Shown here piece after piece: positions 8,517 to 53,395 of a DNA stretch of 64,000 bases. The notes under the pieces were generated by a model. The model was not told the DNA's origin, searched no databases, and was given only the letters and a program-made list of their open reading frames with translations. Numbering within the stretch: the stretch's first letter is position 1; every line of letters begins with the position of its first letter. The DNA is from Acidocella sp. (GTDB lineage Bacteria > Pseudomonadota > Alphaproteobacteria > Acetobacterales > Acetobacteraceae). The stretch covers positions 1 to 64,000 of the forward strand of contig DAIDEE010000006.1 of the NCBI GenBank assembly GCA_027308685.1, given 5' to 3'. Both the position numbers and the translations under genes were made by a program.

Positions 8517-9386
8517 ATGCTCGATATGATGGTGATGCAGGCTGGAAACGGCTTGGCACTTGGGTTTTTATATGTGCTGATTGCTCTAGGGCTGTCGATT
8601 ATTTTCGGCCTCCTTGGCATTGTCAATTTTGCGCATGGCGTGTTCTTCGCGTTGGGGGCTTATTTTTCCGTCACCATGTTTGGCGTGATGGGCTGGTGGG
8701 GCGTGCCGGTAGCGATGGTGATCGTCACCATTATCGGCATGCTCACCGAGTTTTTGTTGATACGGCGGCTTTACGATAAAGACCCACTGGTCAGCCTGAT
8801 CGTGACCTTTGCATTTTCGCTGCTGGCTGAAGCCGTTATTCGCACAATCTGGGGGCCTGAAGGGCAACCTTTCAACGCACCGGATGCATTGAGCAATGTC
8901 ATTATTTTCGGGCCGTTCGTGATGGCGACTTACCGTCTGGCAGTGATGCTGTTAGCGATGGTTATTTTGGCGTCATTGTGGGCGTTTTTGAATTATACAA
9001 AATTTGGTCGCATTTTGAGGGCCGGAAGCCGTGACCCCGGAATGGTTGGTCTGCTTGGGATTAATTTGCCGCGTGTTTTAACGGGTACGTTTGGATTGGG
9101 ATGTTTGCTGGCCGCCATCGCGGGTGTGTTGGCAGCGCCGCTGTGGACCGTGACGCCGAGCATGGGTACGGCCGCGATTATGCCGGCGTTTGTCATCGTT
9201 ACCATTGGCGGGCTTGGCTCGTATATGGGCGCTGTGGTGGCAGGCTTGCTGGTTGGTTTGGTGCAGTCTCTTACGATCCAATTTTATCCGGAAGCCTCCG
9301 CTGCAGCAATGTATGTATTGATGGCTTTGATCTTGCTGGTGCGGCCGCGCGGGTTGTTCGGTGAGCAATGGGAGCGTTTTGAATGA
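8517..9386 (+). CDS. Branched-chain-amino-acid-type ABC permease (LivH family)
   Basis: A 289-residue polytopic inner-membrane permease with the LivH pattern: GLSIIFGLLGIVNFAHG in the first third and GLGSYMGAVVAGLLVGLVQS near the end. It starts 24 bases after the binding-protein gene with a GGGAGGAA ribosome site, and its TGA overlaps the next start as ATGA (9383-9386). It should pair with the permease half of the fusion protein that follows to form the membrane channel of the transporter. Confidence 0.92.
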   Translation: MLDMMVMQAGNGLALGFLYVLIALGLSIIFGLLGIVNFAHGVFFALGAYFSVTMFGVMGWWGVPVAMVIVTIIGMLTEFLLIRRLYDKDPLVSLIVTFAFSLLAEAVIRTIWGPEGQPFNAPDALSNVIIFGPFVMATYRLAVMLLAMVILASLWAFLNYTKFGRILRAGSRDPGMVGLLGINLPRVLTGTFGLGCLLAAIAGVLAAPLWTVTPSMGTAAIMPAFVIVTIGGLGSYMGAVVAGLLVGLVQSLTIQFYPEASAAAMYVLMALILLVRPRGLFGEQWERFE

Positions 9387-46121: not shown

Positions 46122-46775
46122 ATGATGAACCAGCCACATCTCGTATATTTTGCCGACCCTATGTGTTCCTGGTGCTGGGGGTTTTCACCGGTTATCAGCA
46201 CCATTCGGGCCGCGTTCGGTGACCGCTTGCCTATCCGTCTGGTCCTTGGCGGCTTACGCCCTGGCACCACGACGCCGATGGATGAGGCGGCCAAAGCTAA
46301 TACGCGCAAGCATTGGGAGCATGTGCACACGGCCTCCGCCCAGAGGTTTGACTATAAATTTTTTGACCGACCGGAATTTATTTATGACACCGAGCCTGCC
46401 TGCAGGGCGGTGGTTCTGGCGCGGCGGCGTTCAATAGCGATGGCGCTTGATACGCTGGCGGCCATTCATTACGCATTTTATGCCGAAAACCAGGATGTCA
46501 CCGCGCCTGATATTTTGGCCCGAATTTTTGTCTCGTTGGGTGGTGATGAGGCGATGTTTCAGGCTGAATTCTCGGAAACAGCTCTGAGCCAGGAAACACA
46601 ACGAGATTTTTATATCAGCCAACAAACCGGCGTAACAGGTTTTCCAACTCTGATCGCGGGGACCGGGGCTGAAGCCCCGTTTGAGCTTGTCACCCAGGGC
46701 TTCCAAACTGCAGCGCATGTCCTTCCGGCGCTCAGAGACTGGTTAAAACGCCACGAAACTAGCTTGCTTTCGTGA
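46122..46775 (+). CDS. DsbA family oxidoreductase-like protein (FrnE type)
   Basis: 217 residues with a thioredoxin-like fold and the active-site pair CSWC (PMCSWCWGFSP, about residue 14). Later segments TGVTGFPTLIAG (cis-Pro loop) fit the FrnE/DsbA group. No signal peptide is present, so it should be cytoplasmic. The GGAG ribosome site is 8 bases before ATG 46122. Its 3' end overlaps the convergent DoxX gene by 17 bases. Thiol-disulfide exchange is likely; the target is unknown. Confidence 0.88.
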   Translation: MMNQPHLVYFADPMCSWCWGFSPVISTIRAAFGDRLPIRLVLGGLRPGTTTPMDEAAKANTRKHWEHVHTASAQRFDYKFFDRPEFIYDTEPACRAVVLARRRSIAMALDTLAAIHYAFYAENQDVTAPDILARIFVSLGGDEAMFQAEFSETALSQETQRDFYISQQTGVTGFPTLIAGTGAEAPFELVTQGFQTAAHVLPALRDWLKRHETSLLS

Positions 46776-47226
46776 GAAAGCGTTTGATCAATGTATCGAC
46801 CGAGAGCAGTCCAGCCCCTTGTGACATTAACACGAGCATCATGGCGACCCATTGAATATGCGTTGGCCAGGCTTGCGGATAAACAAAAATTTCAATGACC
46901 GATGTCATCCCGAACAAAGCCAGCGCCGTGAAACGGGTAGCTAAACCGAGGAGCAATAATGGCGGTGTAACGACCTCCATCGTCACCGCCATATAAGCAG
47001 AGAGCACTGGCGGCAGTAGGGGCACCTGGTAGCTATTGCTGAACATGTAGAGTGTTGTATCCCAATTGGCCAAATGGGTTTGTGCTGAGCTCCAAAACAC
47101 CTGTGCCAGTGCCACCCGCGCGGTGAGCGCGACCAGCCAATAAGGAATATGATTGAAAAGCTGGGTTACGCGGTCAATAAGATGAACACGAAGCAGAGTC
47201 GGCTTCCGGCTTATGGTTTGGCTCAT
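46759..47226 (-). CDS. DoxX family membrane protein of the bufferin operon (BufD-like)
   Basis: 155 residues with four hydrophobic helices and the DoxX pattern (ALAQVFWSSAQTHLANW, later PPLLLLGLATRFTALAL). It has a strong ribosome site (AGGAGG) and overlaps bufC as ATGA (47223-47226). In known bufferin operons a DoxX protein follows bufC; its role is not settled, but membrane redox or export functions have been suggested for the family. Confidence 0.85.
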   Translation of the reverse strand: MSQTISRKPTLLRVHLIDRVTQLFNHIPYWLVALTARVALAQVFWSSAQTHLANWDTTLYMFSNSYQVPLLPPVLSAYMAVTMEVVTPPLLLLGLATRFTALALFGMTSVIEIFVYPQAWPTHIQWVAMMLVLMSQGAGLLSVDTLIKRFLTKAS

Positions 47227-47996
47227 AATAGTCCTCCTATATTGGGTTGCGTTATGCTGGCGGCGCTAAAAATGCCCAGGTTGAGAAACTTGCACAGTAT
47301 GGTTGCGGCTTCATCAGGGACCACTACATCGAGTGCGGTACCGAGCGGAAAGCCGCTCACCAGCATGCGGGCGAAATCAAAAGCCTCACCATGCAGAGTT
47401 GCCATTTTCAATTTGCCCAGATGACAAAACACGGCCAGATGTTCAGCCCTGGGTGCGGGGGGAAGATGATTTCCAAGCAAGGCGGCTTCCCAACCTGCCC
47501 GCGCCATTGGCCCCACCGTCAGTAAAGTGAGTGAGGGATGAGCGGTAAAATATAAGTTGGTTATTTTTGTGAGGTCGATCTGGCTCAGCCCTTCCAACGC
47601 CAAAGCGGGGTGGCGCGTGGCGTGCAAGGCCCGATGAACCGCCCAGTCCAACCGGGCGATATCTGCCAAGGCCGGATGTTGCCGCGACAGCATTGATTGA
47701 TTGAGATGAATTGAAAAATATTCATCATATTCATACAAATTTGCAGTTTTCGGCGAGCGGATCTGAATGAATTCCTGTGCCGCCTTATTAAATGCTGCTG
47801 CGCCGACGACACGTAGCACCGCCGGATATGCCAAGCGCAACACAGCGGCAAGATTGCCCAGCATATTCTGCCGATATACGCCCAGCCTGATCTGCATTGA
47901 TGGGCCGGCCTCAGCAATCTGCCCGGCCAGCAATGTGGCATCACCACTGCGTAGAAATTCAGCGAATAAGGTTTGCTGTTCAGCCAGTTGCAGCAT
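47223..47996 (-). CDS. bufC: BufC-like DUF2063 protein, partner of the MNIO enzyme
   Basis: 257 residues. The N-terminal DUF2063 domain is clear (QQTLFAEFLRSGD, IRLGVYRQNMLGNL, LRLAYPAVLRVVG). In MNIO systems this partner binds the precursor leader and presents it to the enzyme. ATG 47996 was chosen because GGAGG sits 6 bases upstream; the frame is open further up but those residues belong to the bufB overlap. It overlaps bufB by 17 bases and doxX by 4. Confidence 0.88.
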   Translation of the reverse strand: MLQLAEQQTLFAEFLRSGDATLLAGQIAEAGPSMQIRLGVYRQNMLGNLAAVLRLAYPAVLRVVGAAAFNKAAQEFIQIRSPKTANLYEYDEYFSIHLNQSMLSRQHPALADIARLDWAVHRALHATRHPALALEGLSQIDLTKITNLYFTAHPSLTLLTVGPMARAGWEAALLGNHLPPAPRAEHLAVFCHLGKLKMATLHGEAFDFARMLVSGFPLGTALDVVVPDEAATILCKFLNLGIFSAASITQPNIGGLL

Positions 47997-48834
47997 GATG
48001 AACCTCCGGGCTGACGCGCGCCAGATACTGCTGCGCAATGGTGGCTTGGGCCAATAATTCCGGCAATGCCGGCAGTGCCGCATCCCATTCGATCAGGTTT
48101 GGACGTGGACCAATTATACGAAGTGCCGTCTCGAACAACGCCCAGACCTCCGCCGCTACCGGGCGATCATGAGTATCAATTAACAAGCCGGTCTCATCAG
48201 CGCCTCCGCCAGCCAAATGATACTCGCCTATGGCATAGGAAGGCAGCGCCTCAAGATATTTTATGGCATTCCAGCCGTGATTATGCGCACTGATAAAAAT
48301 ATTACTGATATCGCATATGAGGCCACAACCTGTGCGCGCCACCAGAGCAGCCAGAAACTCTGGCTCAGGAATAGTGGAATTGTTGAATTGCAAATAGGTT
48401 GATGGGTTTTCCATCAATATCTGCCGTCGCAGAATATCTTGCACATGCATAACATTATCGCAAACGGTTGCAAGGCTTTCCTCGGTGAGGGGCAATGGCA
48501 ATAAATCTGCCAGGTAATGATGGTTCACTACTCCCCAGGCCAGATGCTCTGAGACTAAAGCGGGTTGAACTCTGCGCACCAAAGCGGTTATTCTGGCTAG
48601 GTGCTCAGGGTCAACCCGCGTTGCGCTGCCGAGCGAGAGGCCTACACTATGTAACGATACTGGATAATCGCGCCGTATATCCTCAAGAATTTCTAACGCT
48701 GGAGCACTCAGATAATTTTCGCTGTGAACCTCCACTCAGCCAATGTCTGGCCGGGTGGCTTGGAATATAGCATGGTGCGGAAAGCGCAGCCCGACCCCTG
48801 CTTGGCAAGGGACCGGGCTGTGATTTTGCGACAC
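47980..48834 (-). pseudogene. bufB: bufB MNIO (DUF692) gene with in-frame TGA
   Basis: Read through from GTG 48834, this frame encodes a 284-residue MNIO enzyme, the usual size, beginning near QAGVGLRFPHHAIFQATRPDIG. A TGA at 48736-48738 then stands exactly where the family has Trp (DIGW-EVHSENY). The frame goes on at once with VEVHSENYLSAPALEIL and the rest of the TIM-barrel with its His/Glu/Asp iron ligands. TGG to TGA is one base. A GTG directly after the stop (48735) could restart a 251-residue protein lacking the first strand. MNIO enzymes convert peptide Cys to thiazole/oxazole-type groups for copper binding. It is either a null allele, a split gene or a sequence error. Confidence 0.85.
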
Positions 48835-48844
48835 TGATACAGAC

Positions 48845-49165
48845 TCAGGAGGCTTTAAGAGAACCACCGGCGAGCTTTCCACAATCACCCGGTGACAACA
48901 AAACAAAAGAGGCAGGATCATTGGCTTTTGTGGCTTGCCCCGCGCAAGAATGTGTGCCGGTGGCACAATCATTGCGACCAACGGCGTTTACACCGTAACA
49001 AGCCCCCAAATGGCCGGCTTTGACTTGCGCCATGTTGGCCTGTTTTGTCTGCATCATTTGTTGCTGTGTCATCGGTATACCTTGAGCACTAGCAATACCC
49101 GGGGCCATGCTGGCGAGCCCAAGAGCGCTCGTCAGTACCGATGCGGCGAATAATCTACGATCCAT
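48845..49165 (-). CDS. bufA: Bufferin precursor peptide (DUF2282)
   Basis: 106 residues: a signal peptide (to about residue 27, GIASAQ), a Gln/Met-rich linker, and the DUF2282 core. Four Cys are at 56, 67, 74 and 95 within CYGVNAVGRNDCATGTHSCAGQ and SPGDCGK. This matches bufferin-1 type RiPP precursors whose Cys are modified by the MNIO enzyme and which then sequester copper in the periplasm. It has a GGGAG ribosome site before ATG 49165 and is the first gene of the bufA-B-C-doxX operon. Modification here depends on the state of bufB. Confidence 0.92.
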   Translation of the reverse strand: MDRRLFAASVLTSALGLASMAPGIASAQGIPMTQQQMMQTKQANMAQVKAGHLGACYGVNAVGRNDCATGTHSCAGQATKANDPASFVLLSPGDCGKLAGGSLKAS

Positions 49166-49215
49166 TTTGTTCTCCCGTTAATTCACCGCATGAACACCAG
49201 GCGGTACTTTGATTA

Positions 49216-49240
49216 TTTGCTGGGGGGGTGGAAAAGTTAC
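49216..49240 (-). promoter_or_regulatory. Possible SigF-type promoter of bufA, G7 tract in its spacer
   Basis: On the minus strand GTAACT (49240-49235) is followed after 15 bases by CAAA (49219-49216), close to but weaker than the GTAACC-N16-CGAA type. The spacer holds a homopolymer of seven G on the plus strand (49222-49228). It lies about 50 bp before the bufA start. Confidence 0.4.
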
Positions 49241-49274
49241 GCGAGGATCAGGCAAAAATTTTTACCACCCCCCT

Positions 49275-49300
49275 GTAACCTTTCCCCGGCTTGTGGCGAA
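49275..49300 (+). promoter_or_regulatory. SigF-type ECF promoter GTAACC-N16-CGAA
   Basis: GTAACC (49275-49280), a 16-base spacer, then CGAA (49297-49300). This equals the motif reported for Caulobacter SigF targets. It lies 61 bp before the Cys-rich peptide gene that starts the operon containing the ECF sigma factor and NrsF homologue, so autoregulation is expected. Confidence 0.75.
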
Positions 49301-49360
49301 CAACCTTTTACGCGGCCCATGGATTGTCATGGGCTGACGGATTGGGAAGGGATTTTAAAA

Positions 49361-49573
49361 ATGAAGTTTAAGGCATCTATGCTGACTTTGGGTACCGCCG
49401 TTGCGTTGGGCGGGCTGGTTGCTGCCACCGCACCGGCACGGGCCGCTTGTGCGGGCCAGTCGAATACCATGGCCCCGGCTGCCAAATGTTCGGCTGCCAA
49501 ATGCTCGGGCACGACAGCAAAAAAATGTGCTGGTCAGGCTGCTCCCTGTGCGGCCAGGTGCAAGGCAAAATAA
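49361..49573 (+). CDS. Second Cys-rich exported peptide, bufferin-2-like
   Basis: 70 residues: a signal peptide (cleavage near APARA, residue 28) and a mature part of about 42 residues with six Cys (30, 43, 48, 56, 63, 67) spaced among Ala, Lys and Gln (CSAAKCSGTTAKKCAG). Low-complexity Cys/Lys/Ala peptides of this kind are a second class of MNIO substrates. ATG 49361 has an AAGGGA ribosome site; the longer open frame from 49190 crosses the promoter and is not coding. It is first in the plus-strand operon, before thioredoxin and ccdA. Confidence 0.72.
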   Translation: MKFKASMLTLGTAVALGGLVAATAPARAACAGQSNTMAPAAKCSAAKCSGTTAKKCAGQAAPCAARCKAK

Positions 49574-49628
49574 TCCAAAGCGCGGCTGTGTCCCCGCAGC
49601 AGCGCACAAATTTATGGGAGCGATGTCT

Positions 49629-50057
49629 ATGTTGACTCAAAACAAAGCTCATAAAATTACCCGTCAGTTGGTTCTCAAGGGTACAGTGCTATGCGGGTTG
49701 CTGATGATCGGCGCACCCTATGCCGAAGCTGCCAGTTTCGTCCCTTACACGCAGGCGGCTTTCGATGCGGCCATTGCCAATCACACGCCGGTTGTTATTC
49801 ATATTGAAGCCAGTTGGTGCCCCGTTTGTAAGCAACAGCAAGCCATATTGGAGAGTCTGCAGCGAGACCCGCACTACGCGAAGCTGGAAATTCTCGATGT
49901 TGATTTCGACAAGCAAAAACCTGTTGTCAAACAGTTTGGTGCCACCATGCAAAGCACACTCATCGCTTACCATGACGGCAAGCTGGCCCAACGTGCCGTT
50001 GGTATTACAAGTCAAAGTGCCGTGACCTCACTTTTGAACTCTGCCGTCGGCAATTAA
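49629..50057 (+). CDS. Exported thioredoxin-like protein
   Basis: 142 residues. An N-terminal hydrophobic signal or anchor (GTVLCGLLMIGAPYAEA) is followed by a thioredoxin fold with active site WCPVC (CPVC). A TLIAYHDGK segment lies where the cis-Pro loop is expected, and the Pro itself appears replaced by Thr. Of three nearby ATG codons, 49629 has the correctly spaced GGGAG site. CcdA-like protein follows 9 bases later and could supply electrons across the membrane. Likely role: thiol reduction in the periplasm, perhaps of the Cys-rich peptides; inferred. Confidence 0.85.
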   Translation: MLTQNKAHKITRQLVLKGTVLCGLLMIGAPYAEAASFVPYTQAAFDAAIANHTPVVIHIEASWCPVCKQQQAILESLQRDPHYAKLEILDVDFDKQKPVVKQFGATMQSTLIAYHDGKLAQRAVGITSQSAVTSLLNSAVGN

Positions 50058-50066
50058 GCCCGCAAG

Positions 50067-50786
50067 ATGATAACCGCTGGCTTTTTTGCCCTGCTGGCAG
50101 GGCTGCTCTCCACTCTCTCGCCCTGCGTTGTACCGGTGTTACCCTTGGTGTTGGGTGCGGCGCTCTCGCAGCACCGTGCCGGGCCGCTGGCGTTGGCGGG
50201 CGGTGTTGCGCTGTCCTTCACGTTGATTGGCCTGTTTGTCGCCACGATCGGGTTTTCACTTGGATTGAACTTTGGCGTATTCCGAATTTTAGCTTCGGTG
50301 CTGCTGTTGGCTCTGGGATTGTTACTGCTGATTCCTGGTGCTCAGACAAAGCTCGCCACTGCAACCGGGCCGTTTGGCAACTGGGTGAATCAGCGATTTG
50401 GCAGCGGCAGGGGGATTGGTCTGCGCGGGCAGTTTGGTATCGGGCTGTTGCTTGGCACCATCTGGTCGCCGTGCGCCGGGCCAACCTTAGGGGCGGCCAG
50501 CCTATTGGCGTCACAGGGGAAAGGCCTTGGGCATGTTGCCCTGGTGATGCTGATGTTCGGCATCGGCACGGCTCTGCCCTTGGTGGTGCTGGGCTTTGTC
50601 TCCCGCGCCAGTTTGGCTCGCCTGCGTAACCGGATGTTGGGGGCGGGTTCGGCTGGTAAAATGCTGCTTGGCGGGGCGCTGGTGGCGGTTTCTCTGTTAA
50701 TGATCACGGGGCTGGATCATCCGCTGGAGAGCTACCTGGTTCAAGCCTCGCCACCGTGGCTGACCGCCGCCACGACGCAGTTCTGA
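50067..50786 (+). CDS. CcdA/DsbD-like transmembrane electron carrier
   Basis: 239 residues and about six membrane helices. The two redox Cys of the CcdA family are present in LSPCVVPVLP (about residue 18) and WSPCAGPTLG (about 137). Such proteins carry reducing power from cytoplasmic thioredoxin to periplasmic thiol proteins. It lies between an exported thioredoxin gene and a DUF6969-like gene whose ATG overlaps its stop by one base (TGATG). Confidence 0.9.
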   Translation: MITAGFFALLAGLLSTLSPCVVPVLPLVLGAALSQHRAGPLALAGGVALSFTLIGLFVATIGFSLGLNFGVFRILASVLLLALGLLLLIPGAQTKLATATGPFGNWVNQRFGSGRGIGLRGQFGIGLLLGTIWSPCAGPTLGAASLLASQGKGLGHVALVMLMFGIGTALPLVVLGFVSRASLARLRNRMLGAGSAGKMLLGGALVAVSLLMITGLDHPLESYLVQASPPWLTAATTQF

Positions 50787-51424
50787 TGCATACCACCACC
50801 ACCTTGTTGGAACGCGCGCAGGCCGCCGCAACTCTGGTGGCGGCCCTTGGTGTTTTGGAAAGTGCCGGACAAAATTTGGTGACCTGTTTGATAGGCGGTG
50901 CGCCATTTGAAGCCCTTACGCATTACCCGCCTGATGATGTGGTCGACCCCGTAAGCCAGGCGCAATATTATTTTCATGCCCACCGAGGGGCGAAAGAGAG
51001 CGGTCACATTCATTGTTTCATGCGTGGAACAGGAGACGCCAGGCTGACGCATGTGGCAGCCCTCTCGCTCGACAGTTCCGGCAGACCGGCAAAGTTTTTT
51101 ACCACCAACTTATGGGTAACCGACGATCACTGGGCTGAGGCACCGCAGGTGATCAGCCTGTTGCCGCGCATGGTATGGCGGGACGCGCCGGGGCCTGAAA
51201 CGGTGAACCAGGTGCTGGGCGCGTTGTTTATACTGTATCGCCGCGAACTGGCCTCTTTGCTGCGCCGACGTGATAAAACACTGTTGCGTTGGGCGGCAAA
51301 ATATCCGGAGCAGGACCTATTTGCCGATGAACGGCTGGAAATTCTCAGCAGCGTGACCATCGATTTGCCTAAAACTCTGGGCCAACTGCGCCGCCAACTT
51401 GGGGTTGCCGACGATGAGCCATAA
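50786..51424 (+). CDS. DUF6969-like protein of unknown function
   Basis: 212 residues, no signal peptide and no membrane helix. Conserved-looking segments are THYPPDDVVD, QYYFHAHRG, SGHIHCFM and the later NLWVTDDHWAE; the His-rich pattern could bind metal. It resembles family DUF6969, recalled from memory rather than searched. ATG 50786 is translationally coupled to the ccdA-like stop. Its place between a thiol-reducing pair and the SigF/NrsF pair suggests a role in copper or thiol stress. Confidence 0.7.
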   Translation: MHTTTTLLERAQAAATLVAALGVLESAGQNLVTCLIGGAPFEALTHYPPDDVVDPVSQAQYYFHAHRGAKESGHIHCFMRGTGDARLTHVAALSLDSSGRPAKFFTTNLWVTDDHWAEAPQVISLLPRMVWRDAPGPETVNQVLGALFILYRRELASLLRRRDKTLLRWAAKYPEQDLFADERLEILSSVTIDLPKTLGQLRRQLGVADDEP

Positions 51425-51488
51425 TGCTCTAGCTGCCGGTTTACAGAATGGCATACAAACCCAATTCTGGGGGCGCAGCGGGGGAAAC

Positions 51489-52061
51489 ATGGTGGATGAA
51501 GACCCAAATTGGCGGGTCTGGATGGTGGCGGCCCAAGCCGGCGACGCGCGGGCCTATGCTGCGTTGCTGGGTGCGGCCTTGCCTTGGTTGCGTCGCCGGG
51601 CACGCTCACGCTGGCCATATTCGAATGCTGCTGATATCGAGGACATGGTGCAGGAAACCCTGTTGGCTTTGCATCAGAACCGCCATCTTTACGACCCAAC
51701 CCGCCCGCTTGCGCCGTTTTTATTCGGCATTCTAAAGCTACGCGGCGCCGATGTGCGTAGGCGGCGGCAACGTCATGCCGGGCACGAAACCGCTATCGAA
51801 GATGTACCTGTAACCTTTTCTGGGCTGATCACGAATGAGACACAGGAGAGCGATTCCGATCGCGCCGTGATGCTGGCGGCAATAGCGGAACTTTCAGAGC
51901 GTGACAGGATGGTACTTGAATTGTTGAAGGTGCGGCAATTATCGCTGCGGGAAGCGGCAACGCAAACTGGCATGAGTATCGTGGCCTTGAAGGTGGCAAC
52001 GTTCCGGGCCATGCAGCGGCTCAAGGCCGTGATGAAAGGATCGCATCCAGATGCAAACTGA
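51489..52061 (+). CDS. sigF: ECF RNA polymerase sigma factor, SigF type
   Basis: 190 residues with sigma region 2 (RRRARSRWPYSNAADIEDMVQETLLALHQ) and region 4 (LSERDRMVLELLKVRQLSLREAATQTGMS). ATG 51489 follows a GGGGGAA site; an earlier ATG at 51414 overlaps the previous gene but has no such site. It overlaps the NrsF-like anti-sigma gene by 11 bases. In Caulobacter the SigF/NrsF pair controls bufferin operons in response to metals; the matching promoter at 49275 supports the same logic here. The gene also contains a second perfect promoter motif (51810-51835). Confidence 0.9.
   Translation: MVDEDPNWRVWMVAAQAGDARAYAALLGAALPWLRRRARSRWPYSNAADIEDMVQETLLALHQNRHLYDPTRPLAPFLFGILKLRGADVRRRRQRHAGHETAIEDVPVTFSGLITNETQESDSDRAVMLAAIAELSERDRMVLELLKVRQLSLREAATQTGMSIVALKVATFRAMQRLKAVMKGSHPDAN
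51810..51835 (+). promoter_or_regulatory. Second GTAACC-N16-CGAA motif, inside sigF
   Basis: GTAACC (51810-51815), 16 bases, CGAA (51832-51835), in sense orientation inside the sigma factor gene and about 215 bp before the anti-sigma start. It may be an internal promoter feeding nrsF and the Tat protein gene. Confidence 0.5.
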
Positions 52062-52701
52062 AGATTTAATCACCAGCCTGACACAGAATTTGCCGCCGGT
52101 GCGACGTGCCTCGTCACCATCGGCGCTATTGTTGCGCTGGCTGCTGATAACCGCGCCGGTTTTGGTGCTGGTGGTGTGGATTATGGGACCATTACCATCT
52201 CTGACCACGCAGATTACACAACCGCGTTTTATCAGGGCGGAATTGCTGGCTGGCGTTACGTGTCTTGTCTCCGCCTATGCCGCTTTCAGTGCCGGACGGC
52301 CCGATGAGCCGGCTTGGAAATTATGGCTCCCGTTCATAGCGTTTGGACTTTGGCTGGCGGAATTGGGGCGGCAATGTTTTGTTCTCTCTGTCCAAACTAA
52401 AGGGGCGGCCTTGGTCCTGCACACTGACTTCATGTGCATCCCCGCCATTGCCCTGGCCGGGCTGATTCCAGCCTTGGCGATGGTGTGGTTTTTGCGTCGG
52501 CGGGCGGCCTTTCGCCTCACCCATGCCAGCCTGTGCGGCGCCATGGCCGCTGCCGCTGCCGCCGAGGTGGCGCTGCCGCTATTTCACGCCGCCGAGACGA
52601 TGATGATGGTGCTGGTCTGGCAGATGGGCAGCGTTGTGCTGTTCACCATGTTCGCTGCCGCCTGCGGACGATTTATTCTCACGAAACCAGCAATAATTTA
52701 A
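52051..52701 (+). CDS. nrsF: NrsF-type membrane anti-sigma factor (DUF1109)
   Basis: 216 residues with six predicted membrane helices, the DUF1109 pattern. It overlaps sigF, as usual for such pairs, and should hold SigF at the membrane until metal or oxidant stress. Cys129 in DFMCIPAIAL matches the first conserved sensory Cys of Caulobacter NrsF. At the place of the second (near residue 180, LFHAAET) I see Ala after His, so that Cys seems lost; another Cys is at 162. Confidence 0.85.
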   Translation: MQTEDLITSLTQNLPPVRRASSPSALLLRWLLITAPVLVLVVWIMGPLPSLTTQITQPRFIRAELLAGVTCLVSAYAAFSAGRPDEPAWKLWLPFIAFGLWLAELGRQCFVLSVQTKGAALVLHTDFMCIPAIALAGLIPALAMVWFLRRRAAFRLTHASLCGAMAAAAAAEVALPLFHAAETMMMVLVWQMGSVVLFTMFAAACGRFILTKPAII

Positions 52702-52729
52702 TCTCCTATCACAGAAAGGCTATCCTATT

Positions 52730-53395
52730 ATGACCATTAATCGTCGGCGCTTCATTGCGAATACTGCATTGGTTGGAAGCAACTTGCTGTTAGCCAGTCG
52801 CAATACCGCACTGGCTGCTGAAGCACTGAACCTCGACTTCATTCTTCACGCGACTTTTTTTTCGCGTGAAATGAAGCTCGCTAAACCACTTGACCCCCAT
52901 GCGTTTGTTTACGATGCCACAGCGCCTGCCGCGATCGGCCCGCAGGGAATCCACCATGTTGCTGGCTACCGCCCCACGCTCATTGCCGGCCCTGTCAATG
53001 TGGAAGCCTATAATGCTAATGGCAAATCACTGGGGTTCCAAATTGCCGATTGGTTTGCTGCCCGTGGAAAAGTTAAAATCGTCCCGCATGGAGATGGTGC
53101 AGTTGTTACCAGCCACTTCACCAACCTGCTTCCCAACGGGCTATATAGCCTGTTTGAGAATCACTTTGATGTAAAGCCGATAGGCTTCACCCCGCTTGAT
53201 GGTACTGGCACCAGCAATAGTTTTAGTGCAGATGCCAATGGGTCTGGCAGCATCACCGTTAAGGCAACAAAAATGCTAACCCATGCGAATGCGGTTTTGC
53301 TTGTTTACCATAGCGATAATCAAACGCACGGCATGGAACGTGGTAATATCGGCGTGACGGCTCACCACCAGCTGATCGCCCGCATACCTGCGTAA
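52730..53395 (+). CDS. Tat-exported protein of unknown function
   Basis: 221 residues with a clear twin-arginine signal (NRRRFIANTAL, cleavage near TALAA). The mature part appears beta-rich with several His (FILHATFF, GIHHVAGY, TSHFTNLL, THANAVLLVYHSDNQTHG), which could bind metal. It follows nrsF by 28 bases and is last in the SigF operon, before the hairpin at 53407. I do not recognise the family with certainty. Confidence 0.75.
   Translation: MTINRRRFIANTALVGSNLLLASRNTALAAEALNLDFILHATFFSREMKLAKPLDPHAFVYDATAPAAIGPQGIHHVAGYRPTLIAGPVNVEAYNANGKSLGFQIADWFAARGKVKIVPHGDGAVVTSHFTNLLPNGLYSLFENHFDVKPIGFTPLDGTGTSNSFSADANGSGSITVKATKMLTHANAVLLVYHSDNQTHGMERGNIGVTAHHQLIARIPA

Follow-up and report, generated by a model that had tools for sequence, protein, structure and literature searches.

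In Caulobacter, operons of DUF2282, DUF692, DUF2063, and DoxX genes are controlled by the sigma factor SigF and its anti-sigma factor NrsF (PMC3511200, PMC8224329). In Buf1 bufferins, a disulphide joins the outer pair of cysteines, and the two central ones are modified (thiooxazole; PMC12452194). As genes of bufferin clusters, the MNIO landscape paper lists DUF2282, DUF2063, DoxX, sigma factor, and NrsF genes, and it refers to further conserved genes in extremely low proportions; thioredoxin, DsbD, CcdA, and DUF6969 are absent from its main text. In Bradyrhizobium, the SigF-type system EcfF/OsrA was described by Masloboeva et al. in 2012 as controlling genes for a thioredoxin of the periplasm and a DsbD-beta protein; a methionine sulfoxide reductase (Msr) in the periplasm was proposed to receive the electrons (PMC3420878). 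Here, we describe a locus (positions 46759 to 53395) within a 64,000-nucleotide stretch, the window, of Acidocella sp. (family Acetobacteraceae; GenBank accession number GCA_027308685.1, contig DAIDEE010000006.1, positions 1 to 64,000), in which a bufferin operon stands beside genes for a cysteine-rich exported peptide (CysPep), an exported thioredoxin (Trx), a CcdA-type membrane protein, a DUF6969 protein, and a SigF/NrsF pair.

We favor reading the plus-strand operon as a SigF/NrsF-controlled envelope thiol-stress unit whose likeliest client is CysPep, and give this reading somewhat less than an even chance. An original prediction, made from the window alone, had correctly given the SigF/NrsF control of bufferin operons in Caulobacter as known and had proposed that the Trx-CcdA pair is a previously undescribed thiol-supply arm of bufferin systems. 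Its claim of novelty holds in part, as the landscape paper makes no mention of the combination with bufferin genes in its main text, whereas SigF-type control of a Trx/CcdA-like pair had been published (PMC3420878). No published description of the Trx-CcdA, bufferin, and DUF6969 combination was found, most subscription journals lying outside the searched set.

Gene content and predicted SigF-type control of the locus

The features of the locus are given below, where L and G numbers denote fetched loci and genomes, respectively, with G000 being the window's own genome (2.86 Mb, completeness rated at 99.8%).

46759..47226, minus strand: doxX of the bufferin operon (PF07681, E 1.4e-14)
47223..47999, minus strand: bufC, DUF2063 partner of the MNIO maturase (PF09836, E 4.7e-15)
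47980..48834, minus strand: bufB, MNIO maturase, interrupted by a TGA (PF05114 match at 48022-48801; start, GTG near 48834, predicted from sequence)
48845..49165, minus strand: bufA, DUF2282 (Buf1) precursor with 4 Cys (PF10048, E 1.9e-16)
49275..49300, plus strand: SigF-type promoter motif GTAACC-N16-CGAA, 5' of CysPep, equal to the consensus of PMC3511200
49361..49573, plus strand: CysPep, 70 amino acids with 6 Cys (homologues in congeners; no family)
49614..50057, plus strand: exported thioredoxin Trx, WCPVC (PF00085, E 1.8e-13)
50067..50786, plus strand: CcdA-type membrane thiol relay (PF13386, DsbD_2, E 6.3e-11)
50786..51424, plus strand: DUF6969 protein with no evident signal peptide (PF22308, E 4e-55)
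51489..52061, plus strand: SigF-type extracytoplasmic function (ECF) sigma factor (PF04542, PF08281)
52051..52701, plus strand: NrsF anti-sigma factor (PF06532, E 2e-22)
52730..53395, plus strand: Tat-like exported protein (TatP), no family (homologues in L035, L067, L073, L077, L147, L150, and L153)

All of these genes had been placed correctly beforehand, as had their tight, partly overlapping spacing (on the minus strand, doxX and bufC overlap by 4 nt, and bufC and bufB also overlap); the in-frame TGA at 48736-48738 of bufB had been missed.

The thiol-stress reading starts from what is observed directly, namely, gene content, promoter match, conservation, and repeated co-occurrence; its client, the role of DUF6969, and all biochemical steps we infer. 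A metal or an oxidant would disable NrsF, upon which SigF would transcribe its own operon. Through CcdA, electrons of cytoplasmic thioredoxin would then cross the membrane and reach the WCPVC motif of the exported Trx, and Trx would reduce periplasmic cysteines, with CysPep as the likeliest client alongside other oxidized envelope proteins. The reduced thiols of CysPep could bind Cu(I)-like metals, and DUF6969 would be a probable cytoplasmic metalloprotein that handles or modifies CysPep before export. The switch would also drive the bufferin operon as a parallel output, seemingly decaying in the window strain.

The window has the gene order of the SigF/NrsF (ECF16) group, an ECF sigma gene followed by an NrsF-family anti-sigma gene, and the corresponding promoter at 49275-49300 ahead of the presumed target genes. 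Three exact matches to the SigF-type motif were found in the window, with 0.06 expected from shuffles; the other two lie at 2667, far from the locus, and at 51810, inside sigF. This last match (51810-51835) has counterparts within sigF in L003, L008, and L068-L071 and may reflect either coding conservation or an internal nrsF promoter. A scan of the window allowing one mismatch was uninformative (3 found, 2.63 expected).

Genes of the window were compared by dN/dS with those of L067, its nearest relative. Of eight genes compared, CysPep had the lowest value (0.043 over 60 codons) and BufA the highest (0.27), with SigF, TatP, NrsF, CcdA, DUF6969, and Trx ranging from 0.079 to 0.215. Judged by these ratios, the operon of CysPep, Trx, CcdA, DUF6969, SigF, and NrsF is under purifying selection.

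The sensor cysteines of NrsF are C131 and C181 in Caulobacter (PMC3511200) and C129 and C179 in OsrA (PMC3420878). In the window NrsF, C129 is kept and H179-A180 stands where OsrA has C179, matched by position with no published NrsF aligned. In an alignment of 59 NrsF rows, 51 have a cysteine aligned to window C129 and 42 have one aligned to C109. The reliance of NrsF and OsrA on conserved cysteines, together with these frequencies, would suit a feedback in which the relay reduces the NrsF sensor cysteines and ends the response, but H179-A180 at the place of OsrA C179, as judged by position, and the presence of NrsF without the relay in congeners G068, G140, and G187 argue against it, and we regard it as improbable.

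Distribution of the Trx-CcdA relay and its linkage to bufferin genes

The window encodes an exported CXXC thioredoxin (signal judged by eye) adjoining a CcdA with two membrane cysteines, Cys20 and Cys136, which are invariant in alignment A3; on these features, the pair probably forms a transmembrane relay that keeps exported cysteines reduced. A search of 397 family genomes with a profile of the window CcdA gave 57 matches in 51 genomes, with PF05114 found in 48 genomes and NrsF in at least 177. The 55 CcdA loci analyzed besides the window (54 fetched plus L035; the fragment G114:C126 was left out) were mapped by tblastn, and 29 of them reach 4 kb on both sides. Trx lies directly upstream of CcdA in 50 of the 55, the others being a contig-end fragment (L107) and four low-scoring loci (L117-L120). 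SigF or NrsF was found within 4 kb in 19/55, and bufferin genes were found in the fetched stretch in 5/55 (L067 by BufA alone), to which the window and G345, with the genes approximately 10.5 kb apart, can be added. The tie of Trx-CcdA to SigF/NrsF is commoner than its tie to bufferin.

An ordinary CcdA/CcmG role in cytochrome c maturation is suggested by the family names and by plasmid-record homologues annotated as cytochrome c biogenesis CcdA. The genome encodes two further DsbD_TM proteins, so the window CcdA need not be the sole supply for cytochrome c; as just 5 of 14 genomes from the genus, counting the window's own, were found to carry the relay (E 1e-20) and its promoter is of a stress type, this role is very improbable. 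Electron supply to a periplasmic Msr, as proposed for Bll1026-Bll1027, is better founded, since Msr genes are under EcfF/OsrA control together with those for a periplasmic Trx and a DsbD-beta protein (PMC3420878), and the window genome encodes an MsrA with a signal-like N terminus (C60:9045-9494). The cluster itself is without an Msr gene, however, and no SigF-type motif (at most one mismatch) was found at the four fetched Msr loci of the genome, searched approximately 1.5 kb to each side, leaving this explanation unlikely.

The expectation that Trx-CcdA would lie near bufferin genes more often than by chance was borne out. In the family, 38 bufferin-type loci were considered, comprising 37 PF05114 matches with E of <1e-80 and a truncated copy in G368; G134 and G058 (near 1e-75) and weaker PF05114 matches were left out. 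At least six of the 38 (in G000, G018, G182, G341, G345, and G368) share a contig with Trx-CcdA at a distance of no more than 12 kb, a lower bound because several of these contigs are short, whereas well under one would be expected by chance (an estimate from approximately 0.13 CcdA genomes × 24 kb/approximately 4.5 Mb). The best 80 of at least 369 confirmed CcdA relatives were taken as named Trx-CcdA loci, 50 of which reach 6 kb on both sides. Among these nearest 80, the fetched stretch contains BufB in 10, NrsF in 9, and both in 7.

Gene orders vary between the bufferin-linked loci. In L172, L207 (Aminobacter ciceronei DSM 15910, whose bufferin operon is uninterrupted), and L221, bufABC-doxX-sigF-nrsF-trx-ccdA run in a single direction, while in L167, L190, and L334 the bufferin genes are divergent from sigF-nrsF and trx-ccdA, and in L035, L073, and L229 sigF-nrsF follow the bufferin direction with trx-ccdA opposite. 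The order bufABC-doxX-trx-ccdA is found in L196 (Devosia) and L189 (Hyphomonadaceae), with sigF-nrsF approximately 3 kb beyond in the latter. In two Hyphomicrobium metagenome-assembled genomes (L166 and L176), the relay lies between precursor and maturase, as BufA2-trx-ccdA-bufB-bufC (BufA2 scores of 82.7 and 83.5 bits; cutoff, 60). In L166, L176, L189, and L196, Trx-CcdA is codirectional with the bufferin genes with no intervening sigma gene. A FastTree phylogeny of 134 CcdA rows requires 12 or more changes in bufferin linkage, with gain and loss indistinguishable. Varying gene orders and repeated changes show the link of Trx-CcdA to bufferin genes to be recurrent, real, and optional. Among the Burkholderiales loci, a cytochrome c gene directly precedes Trx-CcdA in L224 (1114-1545; SoxA/TsdA-like) and L236 (7145-7570; judged by similar sequence).

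This linkage, the position of the relay between BufA2 and BufB-BufC in Hyphomicrobium, and the bufABC-doxX-Trx-CcdA order in L196 and L189 are what would be expected if Trx-CcdA reduced or repaired bufferins, or isomerized their outer disulphide, and so enabled copper binding. Three lines of evidence speak against such a bufferin-specific thiol arm, which we consider doubtful. First, of 270 genomes drawn from across the class, 103 carry PF05114, and 80 bufferin loci were analyzed, one per genome from the 102 non-window genomes and hand-chosen, mostly top-listed; 57 of them reach 6 kb on both sides, and CcdA was found in only one (L334), with NrsF in 10 by the family-built profile. Second, the Buf1 cysteines finish as modified residues or in a disulphide and are therefore not free thiols awaiting reduction, which leaves little for a reductase and fits poorly with the proposal that bufferin cysteines are kept reduced for copper. 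Third, of the five genomes of the genus that have the relay, the window's included, only G341 was found to have an uninterrupted MNIO maturase gene; bufB is interrupted in G000 and lacks part of its N terminus in G368, and a search of G283 and G392 gave none. Congeners G068, G140, and G187 have an uninterrupted bufB and no relay, all of these numbers being small.

The window has several features of a Bufferin-1 system, including a DUF2282 precursor that contains 4 Cys and whose N terminus is signal-like by eye, a DUF2063 partner, and DoxX; an intact MNIO maturase is missing. The only PF05114 match in the genome (G000:C16:48022-48801) has the one TGA inside it, read from the assembly, so a sequencing error is possible; the segment downstream of the TGA scores 314.6 bits as MNIO_BufB. 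The region 5' of bufA holds merely a degraded motif (GTAACT, a 15-base spacer, and CAAA). At the five congener loci tested, bufA is preceded by GTAACC-N16-CGAA (L024, L128, L070, and L071) or GTAACT-N16-CGAA (L067), starting 74 to 77 bases before the gene. The TGA and the degraded promoter suggest that the bufferin operon has recently been decaying in the window strain, and since the relay is conserved there with bufB interrupted, it may serve more than the bufferin copper peptide. In L024 (congener G068), a gene between CysPep and bufA (9036-9371) has an exact SigF-type motif to itself and encodes a small protein that looks exported.

CysPep, DUF6969, and the case for a thiol-stress operon

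CysPep has no Pfam or NCBIfam match, but its low dN/dS and its congener homologues indicate that it behaves as a real gene. At the six same-genus Trx-CcdA loci (the window and L067-L071, with L068 and L070 being two copies within one genome), CcdA always has DUF6969 after it, and five loci have CysPep ahead of Trx, L069 ending at a contig edge. L334, which belongs to a different family, has the order SigF, NrsF, motif, Cys-rich peptide, DUF6789 protein, Trx, CcdA, and DUF6969.

DUF6969 was found in 57/270 alphaproteobacterial genomes and in 6/120 family genomes. Six histidines (H46, H64, H66, H74, H76, and H89) are invariant across 30 sequences (alignment A4), with other invariant residues including N108, R162, D163, and S188. 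An AlphaFold2 model from five sequences was confident, with a mean pLDDT of 86.8; a fold search of the PDB with it gave nothing at E 0.001 (best, 0.093), a sequence search of the PDB gave no match (best E, 0.79), and no paper on DUF6969 was found in the literature set described above. A second DUF6969 gene in the window genome (C8:39422-39946; L031) has in its vicinity a thioredoxin of the Trx2 type, whose N terminus carries a zinc ribbon.

At 11/45 DUF6969 loci, or 10 without the spurious L257, a signal-like Cys-rich small open reading frame stands no more than 700 bp away on the DUF6969 strand, compared with 7/508 control intervals counted without by-eye screening; some of the 45 came via the CcdA search, so this count is not independent of Trx-CcdA. 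In Burkholderiales L224, L233, and L236, peptide and DUF6969 run in one direction and Trx-CcdA-sigma in the other. A Skermanella mucosa plasmid (L357) carries DUF6969, a peptide with NPCAAK-like repeats after a SigF-type motif, a sigma gene, and NrsF, and a Burkholderia glumae plasmid (L356) carries Trx-CcdA-sigma-zf-HC2, an MFS gene, and then peptide-DUF6969. The Cys-rich exported peptide and DUF6969 are thus a recurrent pair in Alpha- and Betaproteobacteria, sometimes beside Trx-CcdA and an ECF sigma factor, and form the least described part of the system and the part most worth study. It is conceivable, if unlikely, that they constitute an MNIO-independent metal-peptide system run by an ECF switch, in which DUF6969 would modify or load the peptide in the cytoplasm and Trx-CcdA would maintain it after export, and which could outlast a neighboring bufferin operon. 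DUF6969 would then be a new metalloenzyme or metallochaperone with no solved relative found, and the switch would span Alpha- and Betaproteobacteria.

Returning to the thiol-stress reading, its support includes the retention of the module in G000, G368, G283, and G392, four genomes in which no uninterrupted MNIO gene was found. The motif GTAACC-N16-CG[AT]A occurs on the sense strand between 450 bp upstream of and 60 bp into Trx at 25 of the 50 family loci, from 14 genus codes, against an expectation per locus of 0.002 (reversed-pattern density) to 0.02 (observed density, true sites included); three further loci (L068, L070, and L071) have it ahead of CysPep, which precedes Trx. Among 71 named Trx loci, GTAAC-N17/18-CGAA was found upstream in 16 and antisense in 2, and the strict motif in 5 and 0, respectively. 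Several observations weigh against the reading. The 25 loci are not independent, because related loci share motifs, and across the window genome the exact motif has 7 matches compared with 10 for the reversed control, so that the exact scan cannot list the regulon. Congeners G068 and G140 retain CysPep-DUF6969-SigF-NrsF without Trx-CcdA; the peptide and DUF6969 are kept relay free there, which makes the relay an add-on. No CysPep homologue was found beside Trx-CcdA beyond the window's genus in a nonexhaustive search of the family maps, and among the 30 best-scoring class DUF6969 loci a peptide was found in 3, with one more judged spurious.

TatP has no Pfam or NCBIfam match, and its structure model, from one sequence, was uninformative (mean pLDDT, 30.5). 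Homologues recur near doxX in L035, L073, L147, L150, and L153; in L077 one comes directly after CcdA, and the operon has a SigF-type motif. A further thiol protein, of the DsbA family (46122-46775; PF01323, E 3.6e-12), is convergent to doxX with a short overlap.

Comparison with known systems

As a regulon output, the window relay is of a type already known, since SigF-type control of a Trx/CcdA-like pair has been published for Bradyrhizobium, and what is new is the combination; bufferin specificity is not supported in the window. Bufferin operons repeatedly have next to them, or within them, a relay of the kind known from the EcfF regulon, and whether copper-peptide systems require envelope thiol reduction can thereby be put to a concrete test. 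DUF6969 emerges as an unstudied, widespread family recurring next to Cys-rich exported peptides.

In Bradyrhizobium, an ECF16-type sigma/anti-sigma pair likewise controls an exported Trx (Bll1026) and a CcdA-like DsbD beta domain (Bll1027), encoded by bll1026-1027, but that relay is tied by regulation to Msr genes (PMC3420878), whereas the window relay is cooperonic with the sigma genes, CysPep, and DUF6969 and stands beside bufferin genes; the two are likened by kind, not by orthology. With the Caulobacter Buf1 operons the window shares the bufA(DUF2282)-bufB-bufC-doxX order, a SigF/NrsF neighbor, and, in its congeners, a SigF-type promoter, and differs in its interrupted bufB and degraded bufA promoter. 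ScsB-ScsC similarly comprises a membrane reductase that holds an exported thioredoxin-fold protein reduced and has a link to copper (PMC8900818); however, ScsB has three domains and the ScsC of C. crescentus is a trimeric isomerase, while in the window the CcdA is small and the exported protein has just one thioredoxin domain. The CcdA-Etrx-MsrAB2 system of Streptococcus pneumoniae also pairs CcdA with an extracytoplasmic thioredoxin (PMC3914529), in that case with an Msr client and with Gram-positive surface lipoproteins.

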